From positions 1 to 23,311 of the IMG/VR virus record IMGVR_UViG_3300034279_000230: a DNA stretch of 23,311 nucleotides. The stretch is one strand, 5' to 3'. Positions 9,080-23,189 of the stretch are shown in pieces (position 1 is the stretch's first letter; the number at the start of each line of letters is the position of its first letter). Both the position numbers and the translations under genes were made by a program. The notes under the pieces are model-generated. The model was not told the DNA's origin and did no database searches. It was given only the letters and a program-made list of their open reading frames with translations. This DNA comes from a virus.

Positions 9080-9764
9080 CGGAGCTTTGCGGCTTCTGGG
9101 CGTGTTGGCGGAAGGCGAGACGCCGTCCGCTGAAACGTCTCAGGACGCCCTGTCTGCAATGAACCAGATGATCGACTCGTGGAATACCGAGCGGCTGGCG
9201 GTCTATTCGACTATCGACCAAGTGTTGACGTGGCCCGCAACGCAGCGGTCGCGTACGCTGGGGCCAACCGGCGACCTTGTCGGCGTGCGCCCGATCCTTG
9301 TCGAGGACAGCACGTATTTCCGCGACGCCTCGACCGGCATCTCGTACGGCATCAAGCTCATCAACCAGCAGCAGTACAACGGCATCGCGGTCAAGACCGT
9401 CACCAGCACCTACCCGCAGGTCATGTTTGTCAACATGACTTACCCGGACATCGAACTGTACGTCTATCCGGTCCCGTTCAAGGATTTGGAGTTTCACTTC
9501 ATCTCGGTCCAGCCGCTGACCGAGCCCGCCAATCTGGCGACGACGCTGGCGTTCCCGCCAGGCTACCTGCGCGCGTTTCGCTACAACTTGGCGTGCGAAA
9601 TGGCGCCAGAGTTCGGCGTTAACCCGTCGCCGCAGGTCCAGCGCATCGCAATGACGTCCAAGCGCAACATCAAGCGCATCAACAACCCCGACGACATCAT
9701 GGCGATCCCGTACTCGATCACCGGCACACGTCAGCGGTTTAATATTTTCGCGGGCAACTACTAA
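9054..9764 (+). CDS. P22 gp4-like head-to-tail adaptor (head completion protein)
   Basis: 236 residues, longer than P22 gp4 (166). In P22, gp4 binds below the portal after packaging, seals the head and forms the platform for gp10. The helical N-terminal half has the recognisable pattern TAGEQINGALRLLGVLAEGE, then QDALSAMNQMIDSWNTERLA. The middle has NMTYPDIELYVYPVPFKDLE, and the end has RAFRYNLACEMAPEFGVNPS, a typical closing block. The order gp4-like, gp10-like is that of P22. Its TAA overlaps the next ATG by one base. Confidence 0.87.
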   Translation: MTTAGEQINGALRLLGVLAEGETPSAETSQDALSAMNQMIDSWNTERLAVYSTIDQVLTWPATQRSRTLGPTGDLVGVRPILVEDSTYFRDASTGISYGIKLINQQQYNGIAVKTVTSTYPQVMFVNMTYPDIELYVYPVPFKDLEFHFISVQPLTEPANLATTLAFPPGYLRAFRYNLACEMAPEFGVNPSPQVQRIAMTSKRNIKRINNPDDIMAIPYSITGTRQRFNIFAGNY

Positions 9765-11197
9765 TGAAGAGCCCGATTTTAGGTTCCTTCAGCGCCGTCC
9801 GCAGCCCAAACGCGGCGGACAACCAGCTCATCAACCTGTTCCCGGAGATGATCCCGGAGGCGGGCAAGGAGCCCGCGTTCCTGCAACGCGCGCCCGGACT
9901 GCGCTTTCTGGCCTACGTCGGCAACGGACCCGTGCGCGGGCTGTGGACGTTTGGCGACTACGGATACGCCGTCTCGGGCGACAAGCTCTACCAGATCGAC
10001 AACATGTGGGTCGTCACCGAAAAGGGCACGGTTGCGGGGTCCGGCCCCGTGTCGATGGTGGACAACGGCACGCAGCTCTTCATTGCTGCGGGCGCCACCG
10101 GCTACATCTACAACGCTGGCACTGACGTGTTCGCGCAAATCACGGACCCGGACTTCCCCGGCGCGTCCACGGTCGGCTTCATCGACGGCTATTTCGTCTT
10201 CACCGAGCCCAACAGCCAAAAGTTCTGGGTGACCGAGCTGCTCGACGGCACGTCCGTCGATCCGCTGGACTTCGCCAGCGCGGAGGGCTCGCCCGACGAC
10301 CTTGTGTCGCTGATCGTCGATCACCGCGAAGTCTGGCTGTTCGGCCAGACGTCCGTCGAGGTCTGGTACAACGCCGGGCTGCCCGACTTCCCGCTGTCGC
10401 GCATCCAAGGCGCGTTTAACGAGATCGGTTGCGCAGCGCGCGCCTCGGTCGCCAAGCTGGACAACGGCGTGTTCTGGCTGGGCGCGGACGCTCGCGGTCG
10501 CGGTATCGTTTACCGCTCGCAAGGCTACAACGGCCAGCGCATCTCCACGCACGCGGTCGAGTGGCAAATTCAACAGTACGCCGACATCTCGGACGCCACC
10601 GCCTACACCTACCAGCAGGACGGCCATTCGTTCTACGTGCTCAACTTCCCGTCCGCCGACATCACATGGGTCTACGACGTGGCGACGCTGTCGTGGCACC
10701 AGCGCGCCGGCTGGCTGAACAATCGCTACACCCGCCACCGGGGCGACTGCCAGATGGCCTACAACGCCGAGATCGTGGTGGGCGATTATCTCGCCGGGGC
10801 GATCTACGCCTACGATCCGACCGTCTACACGGAGGCGGGCACCGTCCAGAAGTGGTTGCGGTCGTGGCGGGCGCTGCCCACCGGAACCAACAACCTGTCG
10901 CGCACGACGCACCACGCCCTGCAACTCGACTGCGAGAGCGGCGTCGGGCTTGACGGCGAGCAGCAGGGCACCGACCCGCAGGTCATGCTGCGCTGGTCCG
11001 ACGACGGCGGTCATACGTGGTCGAACGAGCACTGGAAGTCGATGGGGCGCATCGGTGAGACGGGCGCCCGCGTCATCTGGCGGCGGCTCGGCATGACGAT
11101 GAAGCTGCGCGACCGCGTCTACGAAGTCTCGGGGACTGACCCGGTCAAGATTGCCATCATGGGTGCGGAGCTGATTATGGACCGTACCAATGCCTGA
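9764..11197 (+). CDS. P22 gp10-like packaged-DNA stabilization / tail hub protein
   Basis: 477 residues, nearly the same length as P22 gp10 (472). It attaches to the gp4-like ring and carries the tail fibres or spikes; without it packaged DNA leaks. The N-terminus SPILGSFSAVRSPNAADN, followed by LINLFPE and LQRAPGLRFLAYVGNGPVRG, is the hallmark of the Phage_stabilise family. The body consists of repeated beta strands of propeller type, with W and G at regular spacing (GYAVSGDKLYQIDNMWV, DHREVWLFGQTSVEVWYN, DNGVFWLGADARGRGIVY). It overlaps the next gene by 8 bp (ATGCCTGA). Confidence 0.9.
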   Translation: MKSPILGSFSAVRSPNAADNQLINLFPEMIPEAGKEPAFLQRAPGLRFLAYVGNGPVRGLWTFGDYGYAVSGDKLYQIDNMWVVTEKGTVAGSGPVSMVDNGTQLFIAAGATGYIYNAGTDVFAQITDPDFPGASTVGFIDGYFVFTEPNSQKFWVTELLDGTSVDPLDFASAEGSPDDLVSLIVDHREVWLFGQTSVEVWYNAGLPDFPLSRIQGAFNEIGCAARASVAKLDNGVFWLGADARGRGIVYRSQGYNGQRISTHAVEWQIQQYADISDATAYTYQQDGHSFYVLNFPSADITWVYDVATLSWHQRAGWLNNRYTRHRGDCQMAYNAEIVVGDYLAGAIYAYDPTVYTEAGTVQKWLRSWRALPTGTNNLSRTTHHALQLDCESGVGLDGEQQGTDPQVMLRWSDDGGHTWSNEHWKSMGRIGETGARVIWRRLGMTMKLRDRVYEVSGTDPVKIAIMGAELIMDRTNA

Positions 11198-11768
11198 GAA
11201 CATCACGCAAATCCCGGCGGCGCGCGTCACCATCGCGGAAGAGCCGACGCCGTACCCGTCGCGTCCGTGGTATCGGTACTTCTACAACCTCTTCGCCATT
11301 TTGGGCAGCGGGTCGCTGCGCAACGGCGCGTTTCACAGCGAGCAGACGCAGACGGCGGCGGCCATCAACACCGGCTACGCCATGACGTTCAACAAGACGG
11401 ACCTGACCCAAGGCGTCTACATCGGCACGCCTAACTCGCGCGTCTACGTGGACCGCCCCGGCGCGTACAACTTCCAGTTCTCGGCGCAGTTTCACAGCAC
11501 CAACGCCTCATCAAAGGACATCTACGTTTGGGCCGACATCAACGGCACGGCGGTCCCGCAGTCGGCTACCAAGCTCACGATGAAGGGTTCTGGCGAATCA
11601 TATTTGGCGGCGTGGAACTTCGTCCTGCGCATGAACACGGGCGACTATTTCCGGCTCATGTGGGCGACTACTAACACGAACGTCTCAATTCTGGCGGAAG
11701 CCGCCACGGCCTTTTCCCCGGCCATCCCTTCTGTTATCCTGACTGCCGCAGCAAACATAGGTGAATAA
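11190..11768 (+). CDS. jelly-roll-type tail-region protein
   Basis: 192 residues. A short N-terminal arm with an aromatic anchor (YPSRPWYRYFYNLFAILGSG) is followed by a C1q/TNF-like jelly roll: FHSEQTQTAAAINTGYAMTF, then PGAYNFQFSAQFHST, DIYVWADINGTAVPQSAT, AAWNFVLRMNTGDYFRLMW and NVSILA. I recall this beta fold as common between gp10-like and fibre genes in podoviruses. It may form a trimeric collar or fibre adaptor; that role is inferred. It is coupled to both neighbours (8-bp overlap upstream, 1-bp overlap downstream). Confidence 0.78.
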   Translation: MPENITQIPAARVTIAEEPTPYPSRPWYRYFYNLFAILGSGSLRNGAFHSEQTQTAAAINTGYAMTFNKTDLTQGVYIGTPNSRVYVDRPGAYNFQFSAQFHSTNASSKDIYVWADINGTAVPQSATKLTMKGSGESYLAAWNFVLRMNTGDYFRLMWATTNTNVSILAEAATAFSPAIPSVILTAAANIGE

Positions 11769-19962: not shown

Positions 19963-21340
19963 TTCTCAACTCCTCAATCGCTATGTCTGATAGGGTGCGC
20001 TTGTCGTGCAGCGCCTGCCACATCCGTTCGTCGATAGTTTTATTACAGATCAGGACATAACACCAGACGTCCTGTGTCTGGCCGCCGCGATGCAGCCGCC
20101 CGACCGTCTGCTCGTACAGCTCCAGCGACCACGGCAGCGACAGAAACACGATCTTGTTACCGTTCGGGTTACCTTGGAGATTGAGCCCGTGGCCGGCGGA
20201 CTTGGGGTGCAACAGCAGCAGACGCGTCTTGCCCGCGTTCCAGCGCGACACGGCGTCGGGCTCGTCGAGCGTCCGGGCGTGCGGGTAGCGGCGCTGCAAC
20301 TCCTCCAGCTCGGCATTGAAGTTGTAGATGACAATGGTGTCGGCGTGCTGGTTCTCCTCCAGCAGCTCGTCCAGCCGGTCAAACTTCTCGGACGACACCC
20401 AGAGCGTGTCTTGTTTCACGTGAAACCGCCCCGGCGCGGCGCTCGCGGTCGAGGTGCTGTCGTAGATGAACCCGGTCGCCAGTTGCTGGAGCTTCATCGA
20501 CACGGCGGCGGCGCTGGGCGCCGCGATCTCGGCCCCGGCCAGCTCCAGCACGAATTTGCGCTTCATGTCGTTGTAGGGCTTGGGGTCCACCAGATCGCAG
20601 CGCAGCTCGACCGTGTGCAACGGCGGCAGCTTGTCGGCGTACTCGCCCGGCTCCAGCACGAACGTGGCGGGCTTGATGGCCGCCATGACCTGCTCCAGCG
20701 CGCCGCGACGCGGCTGCCACTCGCCAAAGTCGCGGTTGACGCAGACGAAGTACTTCTGGAGGAACGCGCCCTTGGCGCGGCCCAGCAGGTTCTGGTCCAC
20801 GATCTTGCACTGGCCGAACACGTCCTCCAAACCGTTGGAGGTGAACGAGCCCGTCAGCCCCCACCGAATCGGCACGTCCTTGATGAGCGCCTCCAGCGCC
20901 TTGAAGCGTTTGCCCGCCGGGTTCTTGAGCCGCGTCAGCTCGTCGAAGACGACTACGTTAAAACCTATGTCGGCTAACGATTTGCCTTTCAGCTTACCCG
21001 CCAGCCACTGTATGCCGTCGTAATTCAGTACGACGACGTTCGCGCCGTTCTCGGCTGGCGGTCTGAAGGCTGCCGCCCGCTGTTTGGGTGACCCCACCGC
21101 TACGGCGACGCTGAGGTACTTGCCCCACTTATCAATTTCCTGTGACCAGACATCCGTGCAGACGCGCTTGGGGGCCAGCACCAGCGCGCGGTGCAGGTGT
21201 CCGTCCTCCCACAGCGCATCGAGCGCCGTTATGGTGATGGCCGTCTTGCCCGCGCCCACGGGCGCTAGGACGAGCGCGCGGTCGCGGGCGAAGATGAAGT
21301 CGGCGGCGTCGTCCTGGTACGGTCTAAGTTTCAGTGTCAA
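19955..21340 (-). CDS. SNF2-type DEAD/DEAH-box helicase
   Basis: 461 residues. The start is TTG, chosen because GGAG lies 6 nt upstream and homology to helicases begins at once (LKLRPYQDDAADFIF, the Q-like motif). Walker A is APVGAGKTAI (26-35), motif Ia VLAPKRVC, motif II VVFDELTRLKN (DELT at 133-136, in place of DEAH), motif III GLTGSF (161-166), motif V GHGLNLQG and motif VI QTVGRLHRGGQ (about 411-421, Arg fingers). This set is that of SNF2-like translocases in many phages, which act on dsDNA in replication or recombination. Context with a VRR-NUC nuclease fits that. It overlaps the end of the methyltransferase gene by 17 bp. Confidence 0.9.
   Translation of the reverse strand: MTLKLRPYQDDAADFIFARDRALVLAPVGAGKTAITITALDALWEDGHLHRALVLAPKRVCTDVWSQEIDKWGKYLSVAVAVGSPKQRAAAFRPPAENGANVVVLNYDGIQWLAGKLKGKSLADIGFNVVVFDELTRLKNPAGKRFKALEALIKDVPIRWGLTGSFTSNGLEDVFGQCKIVDQNLLGRAKGAFLQKYFVCVNRDFGEWQPRRGALEQVMAAIKPATFVLEPGEYADKLPPLHTVELRCDLVDPKPYNDMKRKFVLELAGAEIAAPSAAAVSMKLQQLATGFIYDSTSTASAAPGRFHVKQDTLWVSSEKFDRLDELLEENQHADTIVIYNFNAELEELQRRYPHARTLDEPDAVSRWNAGKTRLLLLHPKSAGHGLNLQGNPNGNKIVFLSLPWSLELYEQTVGRLHRGGQTQDVWCYVLICNKTIDERMWQALHDKRTLSDIAIEELRND
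19960..20010 (-). repeat. gene-junction repeat, copy 1
   Basis: About 50 bp encoding HDKRTLSDIAIEELRN at the end of the helicase and ending at the ATG of the 88-residue protein. Core TCAGACATAGCGA...GAGGAG...AATG. Direct repeat of 19701-19750. Confidence 0.7.
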
Positions 21341-22346
21341 GGAACGCTCCGATCACTTCTGCGGCCGCCTGCGGGACGATGGCATTGCCGTAGGCGCGCA
21401 GGCGTCCCACTCGGGCGGGAACCCCATGAGCCAGCAAACAAACTCCGGGTTTAACGCGCCGGGCTTTTCCGTCTGCTCCTGCAATCCAGTCACATTCTCC
21501 CCAAGCCCCAGCGCGTCGGTTGCTTCCGTCGTGAGAGATTTCTGCGAGCCCTTCGCATCCCCCATCCTGCGCTGGTAGCCAAGCCGCGCTTCGTGCGCCA
21601 TCGGCGTTGGCCACATTGCCAAAGACACTGTGTCGTTCAAATTCGACATCCCGTGGCCCTGCGCTTTCTTCGCAGCAATGTACTCCGGCGTGTGCGCCGG
21701 AAAGTGATCTCTCGCCGTTGGCGTCGGCCACATCGCCTTCGCTACCTGCGAAAGATCGACCTGTATCTTCTTGCCCTTGTGGTAAGGGGTATTGCCCCGC
21801 CACTCGTCCGCGTGCGCTATCGAACGCCCGCCGTTCGGCAGTGTTGGCGTCGGCCACAAACCAGAGGCGATCTCTTCGATGGGGCGCATCGACGGCACAA
21901 GCCGGAACAACGGCCGCCCCGCAGGCGTAGCCGACGCCTTCCAAGTCAGCACACACTCCGTCGAGCCAATCCTTTCCAACCGCTGCCGCAACCTGTTCTC
22001 CCATGAGGACAGGGGGCCGACAGGCGCGGATAAGCTCAAAGAAGACGGGCCAGAGGTGGCGCTCGTCTTCCTGCGCTTTACCTTTTCCGGCGACGGAGAA
22101 GGGCTGGCAGGGGGCGCTGCCCGTCCACAGAGGCCGTTCGTCGGGCCAGCCAGCAAGGCGGGCGGCGTAGGCCCAGCCGCCGATCCCGGCGAAGAAGTGG
22201 CACTGGGCGTACCCGCGCAAGTCCTCTGGAGCCACGTCGCAAATAGACCGTTCATCTACATCCCCCTCCGGTATCAGCCCCTTGGCTATCAGGTTGCGCA
22301 GCCATTGGGCTGCGTAGGCGTCGATTTCGTTATAGTACGCATCCAC
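21324..22346 (-). CDS. C5-cytosine DNA methyltransferase (Dcm type)
   Basis: 340 residues from GTG at 22346, chosen because GAGGGG lies 8 nt upstream and the family block VDAYYNEIDAYAAQWLRNLI starts there; ATG at 22376 would overlap the VRR-NUC gene by 88 bp. Motif I is CHFFAGIGGW (49-58), motif IV SAPCQPFS (77-84, catalytic Cys80), motif VI GEQV (116-119, usual ENV altered to EQV), motif VIII RRDRLWFVA (157-165) and motif X RLRAYGNAIVPQAAAEVI near the end. It would transfer a methyl group to cytosine C5, probably to protect phage DNA from restriction. Between motifs VIII and X (about 21400-21870) this frame has many A-ending codons, whereas the +1 frame there looks coding; see the next entry. 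Confidence 0.85.
   Translation of the reverse strand: MDAYYNEIDAYAAQWLRNLIAKGLIPEGDVDERSICDVAPEDLRGYAQCHFFAGIGGWAYAARLAGWPDERPLWTGSAPCQPFSVAGKGKAQEDERHLWPVFFELIRACRPPVLMGEQVAAAVGKDWLDGVCADLEGVGYACGAAVVPACAVDAPHRRDRLWFVADANTAERRAFDSARGRVAGQYPLPQGQEDTGRSFAGSEGDVADANGERSLSGAHAGVHCCEESAGPRDVEFERHSVFGNVANADGARSAAWLPAQDGGCEGLAEISHDGSNRRAGAWGECDWIAGADGKARRVKPGVCLLAHGVPARVGRLRAYGNAIVPQAAAEVIGAFLDTET
21353..22255 (-). CDS. overprinted 300-codon ORF inside the methyltransferase gene
   Basis: Same strand, +1 frame relative to the methyltransferase. ATG at 22255 has GGAGGGG 7 nt upstream. The product has ENRLRQRLERIGSTECVLTW, KASATPAGRPLFRLVPS, three spaced WPTP units (GLWPTPTLPN, AMWPTPTARD, AMWPTPMAHE) and a closing LNPEFVCWLMGFPPEWDACA. 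I remember this pattern from many phage and prophage proteins deposited as hypothetical or as cytosine methyltransferases, so it is not unique to this window. From about 22010 leftward its codons end mainly in G/C, like true genes here, while the methyltransferase frame does not. It could be a real overlapping gene, a frameshift product that supplies a target-recognition part, or a conserved shadow frame. The first 60 codons look less gene-like. Confidence 0.5.
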   Translation of the reverse strand: MNGLFATWLQRTCAGTPSATSSPGSAAGPTPPALLAGPTNGLCGRAAPPASPSPSPEKVKRRKTSATSGPSSLSLSAPVGPLSSWENRLRQRLERIGSTECVLTWKASATPAGRPLFRLVPSMRPIEEIASGLWPTPTLPNGGRSIAHADEWRGNTPYHKGKKIQVDLSQVAKAMWPTPTARDHFPAHTPEYIAAKKAQGHGMSNLNDTVSLAMWPTPMAHEARLGYQRRMGDAKGSQKSLTTEATDALGLGENVTGLQEQTEKPGALNPEFVCWLMGFPPEWDACAPTAMPSSRRRPQK

Positions 22347-22600
22347 TCGTCGATCCCCTCTGTTGTCCACAGACATGCGTAGTTCTGGTTCAGCCGCTCC
22401 ATCTCCCGCGCGAACAGGCGCTGGAGGTCGGACAGGCGGCCACCCTTGGTCTTCAGCTCTACAAACCACGTCGAGCCGTCCGGCAGGCAGGCGATTCGGT
22501 CGCTGACGCCGCGCTGGTTCGGGCTGTGGAACTTGAACGAGCGCCCGCCCATCCGTTCCACGGCCCAAACGAAATATCGTTCGATTTCGCTCTCACGCAT
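22289..22600 (-). CDS. VRR-NUC domain nuclease
   Basis: 103 residues, the whole protein being one VRR-NUC domain (PD-(D/E)XK fold). Visible motifs are ESEIERYFVWAVERMGG at the start, KFHSPNQRGVSDRIACLPDG (Gly31, Asp34), WFVELKTKGGRLSDLQ (Glu48, Lys50, Gln60), with the D...ExK...Q pattern complete. Such proteins cut branched or flapped DNA and often sit next to SNF2 helicases in phage genomes, as here. It starts 8 bp inside the Mom-like gene (ATGCGTGA) and its end overlaps the methyltransferase start by 58 bp. Confidence 0.9.
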   Translation of the reverse strand: MRESEIERYFVWAVERMGGRSFKFHSPNQRGVSDRIACLPDGSTWFVELKTKGGRLSDLQRLFAREMERLNQNYACLWTTEGIDEWMRTITKSTPTQPNGCAT

Positions 22601-23189
22601 GGGCGTTTACCGGCGGCGGGTTAGTTTTCCAGTTTAGTTTAGGCCAAGCGCATAATTTCTCTAGCTGTTTACGATCCCGCCGTGTTCCCGTTGTCGTCCA
22701 GTATTTCACTTTTGGCTTACGTCGAACCTTGTGGGTAAACCCGTTTCGGAAAGCGTCGCGCGAATGTTTGCCTGGGGCCACGTAATCAAAACGCGGCGTT
22801 TTGCGCTCCATATCGGTCCAGCCGCTATAGTGAAAGTTGGCGGCGCGGTAGACGTATCCGGCGTGGCCTTCTGCCGTGTCGGCGTAACTGAGAATGATGC
22901 GCGGCGGCAAGAGCGCCATGCAGCGAGACAGAAACCACGTCTCTGTGTTTCGTGGGGCGGCGTCATCGACCCACAGGCGGTTAAGCTCTAGGACTATTTG
23001 AGGGGCGGTGGGGCACGCGCCGATGACCATGTGGCGGCTGGCGGGCACACCAAAAGTCGCAACACCGCAAAGGTTGTCAGCGTGGAATAGTCCAAAGGCG
23101 AACGACATCGGCGGGCGGCGGCGCAGATAGTGGCGCTCCACAACAATACGGGCGGCGTCAATTTTTGATATGGGTTGGACGTGTCGCAT
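22593..23189 (-). CDS. Mom-like DNA adenine modification protein
   Basis: 198 residues. The sequence carries the blocks of the phage Mu Mom family (GNAT-like fold): VVERHYLRRRPP (16-27), CGVATFGVPASR (41-52), ELNRLWVDDAAPRNTETWFL (68-87) and SYADTAEGHAGYVYRAANFH (101-120), then SGW. Mu Mom converts adenine in DNA to a methylcarbamoyl form that blocks many restriction enzymes. The C-terminal 60 residues are strongly basic (GKHSRDAFRNGFTHKVRRKP), consistent with DNA binding. No com-like translational activator gene precedes it. It is first gene of the leftward operon; the SD is weak (AGAG) and the start is very close to a possible promoter. Confidence 0.88.
   Translation of the reverse strand: MRHVQPISKIDAARIVVERHYLRRRPPMSFAFGLFHADNLCGVATFGVPASRHMVIGACPTAPQIVLELNRLWVDDAAPRNTETWFLSRCMALLPPRIILSYADTAEGHAGYVYRAANFHYSGWTDMERKTPRFDYVAPGKHSRDAFRNGFTHKVRRKPKVKYWTTTGTRRDRKQLEKLCAWPKLNWKTNPPPVNAHA

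Follow-up and report, generated by a model that had tools for sequence, protein, structure and literature searches.

Among Bacillus phages, multispecific C5-methyltransferases of the M.SPRI type hold several recognition modules on one chain that is read from one frame. A different arrangement is found in M.EcoHK31I, which is reported by Lee, Kam and Shaw (1995) to need two proteins for methylation in vitro, and the small ORF of which reportedly lies inside the large ORF in another frame. In this two-polypeptide C5-methyltransferase (YGGCCR), motif IX alone is located on the small chain and motifs I-VIII and X on the larger one, to which the predicted target-recognition domain (TRD) was assigned as well (PMC3404938). 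M.AquI also consists of two polypeptides, with a linear split that leaves motifs I-VIII and part of the variable region on one chain and the rest of that region with motifs IX-X on the other (PMC3404938). An out-of-frame ORF of another kind, the ShiLan domain, is an HNH endonuclease hidden in a mycobacteriophage methylase gene (PMC11855218).

The locus described here is part of the IMG/VR virus record IMGVR_UViG_3300034279_000230, which was analysed over its whole length of 23,311 bases (the window) and is probably a fragment. The plus strand harbors the genes for portal, scaffold, major head and head closure; on the minus strand there are, besides the methyltransferase locus, a Mom-like gene, a VRR_NUC gene and an SNF2-type helicase. 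The Mom-like DNA modification gene (22593-23189; PF25680, E=6e-34) is situated close upstream of the dual methyltransferase, with the VRR_NUC gene (22289-22600) between the two, and two kinds of DNA modification are found in one cluster. The head-closure gene (9764-11197) has a 484-codon ORF antisense to it (9779-11233, minus strand), which is probably a GC-rich shadow.

Two overlapping frames, denoted M and W, make up the methyltransferase locus, and all positions given for it refer to the minus strand. M (21324..22346, GTG start) is the C5-cytosine methyltransferase frame and encodes an alpha-like chain with motifs I-VIII and X; W (21353..22255, ATG start, 300 aa) is a +1 overlapping gene for a beta-like chain and is contained entirely within M. 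A preceding sequence-only reading had noted that both frames are open over about 900 bp, that GGAGGGG precedes the +1 ATG by 7 nt, and that the WPTP units of one frame and the VADAN units of the other are the same DNA repeats. All of this is seen here, with the ATG at 22255 and with TGGCCRACGCC at 21846-21856, 21720-21730 and 21603-21613. The shift in codon use between the frames that it described is likewise found, third-position GC over the recognition region (21849-21462) being 0.74 in W and 0.50 in M; over 22250-22013 the value for M is 0.80. Its placement of the methyltransferase motifs in the M frame holds for motifs I-VIII and X, to which has to be added that motif IX is absent from M and is found in W instead.

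As in M.EcoHK31I, motif IX is thus located on a separate, smaller chain and motifs I-VIII and X on the larger one, and W is nested wholly in M in the +1 frame, a nesting that M.EcoHK31I reportedly shares. The two differ in the position of the TRD, the predicted one of M.EcoHK31I having been assigned to the large chain, which speaks against the parallel, while here selection and the cassette mosaic described below place it on the small chain. M.EcoHK31I was compared by its description, and the locus studied belongs to a large gene family found in phages and bacteria. Unlike M.AquI, the locus has one ORF inside the other, and after motif IX the order of motifs goes back to the first frame for motif X. 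In ShiLan gp70 and prophiGD91-2 gp27, the catalytic core, LLPTP repeats, LAPAFSEWMMGWPAGWVT and motif X are all found in one frame; these single-chain actinophage enzymes have the same motif order as the locus studied, and their motif IX (LAPAFSEWMMGWPAGWVT) is homologous to W, but they are read from a single frame. The M.SPRI type resembles the locus in having several modules per enzyme, the W cassettes being putative modules, and differs from it in using one frame and one chain. Taken by its sequence, the locus very probably encodes one C5-methyltransferase as two polypeptides from two overlapping frames, in the manner of M.EcoHK31I.

In order to compare the constraint on the two frames, dN/dS was determined for each of them from 30 independent pairs, in regions delimited by the methyltransferase motifs. 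Over motifs I-IV the ratio is 0.12 for M and 0.97 for W and over motif X 0.13 and 0.63, whereas the order is reversed in the recognition region (M 0.99, W 0.19) and in the 'LNPEFVCWLMGFP' segment of motif IX (M 0.39, W 0.17). Over motifs VI-VIII the ratios are 0.21 for M and 0.38 for W; here (21850..22012) both frames are constrained, M by its motifs and W by a helix and a beta-hairpin (LRQRLERIGSTECVLTWKASATPAGRPLFRLVPS). The bootstrap intervals of M and W do not overlap for motifs I-IV, the recognition region and motif X. The same picture is obtained with 127 pairs, and a phase-flip scan was also run. Since dN/dS alternates by region, motifs I-VIII and X belong to M, and the recognition region and the motif next to it belong to W. 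At the level of sequence these comparisons demonstrate a split of the domains between the frames, with motif IX in W.

M matches PF00145 with E=7e-17 (residues 75-171, 62 bits at a cut-off of 22) and phrog_363 with E=3e-78, and aligns to the catalytic core of the single-chain actinophage methyltransferases with E=1e-21. The segments PCQP, GEQV and PHxRxR are invariant in alignment A6, and the catalytic motifs of a C5-methyltransferase (IV, VI-VIII) are present; motif IV (PCQPFS) is located at 22095..22112, and its PCQP is invariant in alignment A1 as well. Motif X (RVGRLRAYGNAIVPQ..., 21339..21413) is assigned to M by invariant columns in A6 and by dN/dS. In PF00145 the chain with motifs I-VIII and X also has a TRD and a motif IX; these two are not found in M, where the corresponding region is neutral and predicted to be disordered. 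In the AlphaFold model of M, residues 1-171 and the C-terminal helix are confident and residues 172-280 are disordered (pLDDT <50), and this predicted disorder coincides exactly with the W-constrained stretch. A Foldseek search with the model matches M.HhaI (E=8e-8); by sequence, M matches solved C5-methyltransferases (M.HhaI) only over motifs IV-VIII.

W matches phrog_1008 with E=8e-32, and no match was obtained with Pfam families or with PDB sequences. By hhalign, a segment of W aligns to motif IX of the single-chain actinophage methyltransferases with E=4.9e-6, and motif IX (GALNPEFVCWLMGFPPEWDA) is accordingly placed at 21401..21460, in the stretch with the W dN/dS given above; the W repeats match the single-chain enzymes weakly (i-E 4.5e-5 to 2e-3). 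The target-recognition region is assigned to W at 21462..21849 by dN/dS, pLDDT and the cassette mosaic and comprises three WPTP cassettes, which read as VADAN repeats in M. Mostly two to four WPTP-like units are present per W. In a comparison of 138 loci, an identity of 70% or more was found for 307 unit pairs, of which 37 link loci with catalytic cores less than 60% identical; 22 of these 37 occupy different ordinal positions. In the W of the window, unit 1 is closest to L005 and L006 (39-40 of 42, with 40/42 in L006), unit 2 is closest to Rhodobacter phage RcMaeve (32/38) and also resembles one from a Sphingomonas plasmid (26/33), and unit 3 is closest to L003 (57/60). These sequence matches establish W as a mosaic of shuffled WPTP cassettes that are common to distant loci. 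Exchangeable recognition modules would be expected to give such a pattern, which suggests a role of the cassettes in specificity. The AlphaFold model of W alone is of low confidence (pLDDT 60, pTM 0.25), and the fold of W as a recognition domain is therefore putative; such a poor prediction would fit, without proving it, a chain that depends on an obligate partner.

With motif IX and the recognition cassettes carried by W, each of the two frames seems to provide one subunit of a single enzyme. W might instead be an overprinted protein with a separate function, e.g. anti-restriction or regulatory, and no methyltransferase subunit at all. Overprinted accessory proteins are common in viruses, which favors this reading, and W is without a Pfam match and has a novel-looking N-terminal part. 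However, W contains the motif IX that is missing from M, its constraint is strongest where that of M is absent, it accompanies M in 160 of 160 loci, and the single-chain relatives hold both W-like repeats and motif IX. We consider a separate function quite improbable.

In the two-subunit reading, M (frame 0) is the catalytic chain, with motifs I-VIII, a neutral stop-free linker and motif X. W (+1) starts at its own Shine-Dalgarno (SD) site and ATG inside M and comprises, in this order, a passive N-terminus, the helix and beta-hairpin, the WPTP-cassette recognition region and motif IX. From the sequences we infer that the two chains would assemble physically into an active, DNA-methylating enzyme, to which W would give its DNA sequence specificity by means of the cassettes. 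Protection of the phage DNA from host restriction would be the likeliest biological role.

The SD site of W (GGAGGGGG) is located within M codons at 22262..22269. In the DxRSI motif of M, the Arg codon is AGG in 26% as compared to 7% elsewhere in M, and an ATG is found just downstream in 33 of the 34 loci with AGG at this Arg; the Asp codon of the motif is GAT in 77% vs 37%. An ATG is present at one of two sites in 117/133 loci. A W start is preceded by an SD match of at least 4 in 125 of 153 loci, as compared to about 19 in shuffles; as shuffles in which the W frame is closed depress this null, the codon choice at the start is the cleaner evidence. Judged by these codons, the W start and its SD site are maintained by choices that are synonymous in M. 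Six loci have stops in the N-terminal part of W; in these there is an ATG downstream of the last one, mostly accompanied by an SD-like run of purines, and the N-terminus of W thus looks dispensable.

A single complete chain could also arise by ribosomal frameshifting that swaps the recognition region, as the sequence-only reading had considered, with a shift from M to W after motif VIII and back before motif X. The product would contain motifs I-VIII, TRD, IX and X, i.e. a complete enzyme in the order that the single-chain actinophage relatives show in one frame. Contrary to this, the SD site and ATG of W are maintained at positions that are synonymous in M, and W has no stops ahead of any shift point. 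M is unbroken from motif I to motif X in 214 of 216 loci (loci cut by a contig end left out) and so runs through the recognition region in which it is neutral; this count was used because zero M stops in that region follow by construction from M having been taken as an open ORF and are not evidence. Furthermore, a -1 slippery heptamer in the W frame between motifs IX and X is found in only 14 of 151 loci, and a conserved -1 slippery site at this frame junction is thus not seen among them. Uninterrupted frames and a separate W start make frameshifting highly improbable, and that part of the earlier proposal is not supported.

The openness of W itself was assessed in loci gathered in three ways, by W, by M and by the M profile alone. 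When M of the window was shuffled synonymously 20,000 times, the probability of an open 300-codon +1 frame was P = 0.0021, with 4.1 stops on average. At 160/160 loci chosen by the M profile alone, a W profile match is found in the exact +1 phase. In 119 non-redundant loci chosen by M, W contains 3 stops vs 296.6 expected after synonymous shuffling of M, while the +2 control frame shows no depletion (966 stops vs 899 expected), and in each of the 119 the W profile scores above every synonymously shuffled null. Over motifs I-IV, 10 stops are observed in W vs 148 expected; as stops are avoided even where the amino acids of W are neutral, the whole W frame appears to be translated through. Purifying selection and stop avoidance are thus found in both frames, and by these sequence tests W is demonstrably selected and very probably translated. 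The suggestion of a widely spread, overprinted real gene is strongly supported by the stop depletion, by the per-frame dN/dS with its purifying selection on W in the recognition region, and by the M-synonymous preservation of start and SD site; the check for stops in the +1 frame of close relatives, which the sequence-only reading had proposed, did not refute W.

GC-rich genes do carry long spurious ORFs, with several antisense examples elsewhere in the window, and W could accordingly be taken for a non-coding shadow of the constrained GC-rich methyltransferase frame; indeed, the W similarity over motifs I-IV is such a shadow, as its dN/dS of nearly one there indicates. However, synonymous shuffling of M yields about 100 times more W stops with the +2 frame undepleted, and in the recognition region purifying selection acts on W and not on M. 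Synonymous shuffling and per-frame dN/dS refute the shadow as an account of the whole W ORF, and we give it practically no credence. The ShiLan domain likewise lies out of frame within a phage methylase gene, but that W is a mobile insertion of such a kind is just as hard to credit and was rejected. The ShiLan domain is a patchily distributed homing element that has no identifiable SD and is no part of the enzyme (PMC11855218), whereas W occurs in all relatives examined and overlaps the conserved catalytic core and not an insertion, and no HNH or other nuclease family was found in W (no HNH match in 97 W members).

For the family as a whole, we think it likely that the widespread phage and bacterial methyltransferases of the phrog_363 type are obligate two-chain enzymes, the specificity of which would reside wholly in the +1 phrog_1008 WPTP cassettes, the annotated frame being a stop-free, meaningless linker in that region. 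If this is true, specificity predicted from the annotated protein has been read from the wrong frame, and the annotation of a common methyltransferase family is corrected. The annotated protein alone is predicted to be inactive or unspecific, and the specificity of orphan phage methyltransferases would become testable through the other frame. A same-strand overlap of about 900 bp is conserved in dsDNA phages and bacteria and would have a clear reason, namely two superimposed subunits, with neutrality in one frame wherever constraint acts on the other. The arrangement would also provide a naturally split methyltransferase as a platform, the recognition cassettes of which can apparently be swapped. 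In PHROGs the two frames form separate families, both labelled DNA methyltransferase; a few phage records, K1ind2 and Likha among them, list each frame as a gene of its own, while most records annotate one. A literature search found no paper that describes this wide family, and its breadth, the alternate-frame recognition region and the cassette structure look undescribed.

Several relatives deviate from the common arrangement. In Gordonia phage Baddon (L255:2309-3376), motifs IX and X are read from the M frame and a W profile match lies in another one; no LLPTP repeats were seen in this M frame, and the locus is perhaps an intermediate arrangement. In L039:2872-5238, L047:2959-5289, L051:2950-5277 and L060:2956-4437, W has no stop and continues in frame into the next gene, a DUF2800/PD-(D/E)XK nuclease in L039 and L047 and Dam in L060; the two genes may be fused, or the second may have a start codon at the junction. 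A Sphingomonas paeninsulae plasmid (L261:1867-2976) encodes a distant M/W pair with one cassette in common with the window, in which W extends beyond motif IX with a C-terminus of its own. In Virus SI2, recorded with Dunaliella (L263:2213-2686), a deletion remnant retains only the M start, the W motif IX and the M motif X. In a Bosea genome (L272), a further W-like match (G002:C391:18537-18812) is weaker than the first and lies close to it. In the K1 phages and PMG1 (L092:2243-3040, L264:2120-2881), W bears the annotation 'Mte8-like protein' or is likened to one.
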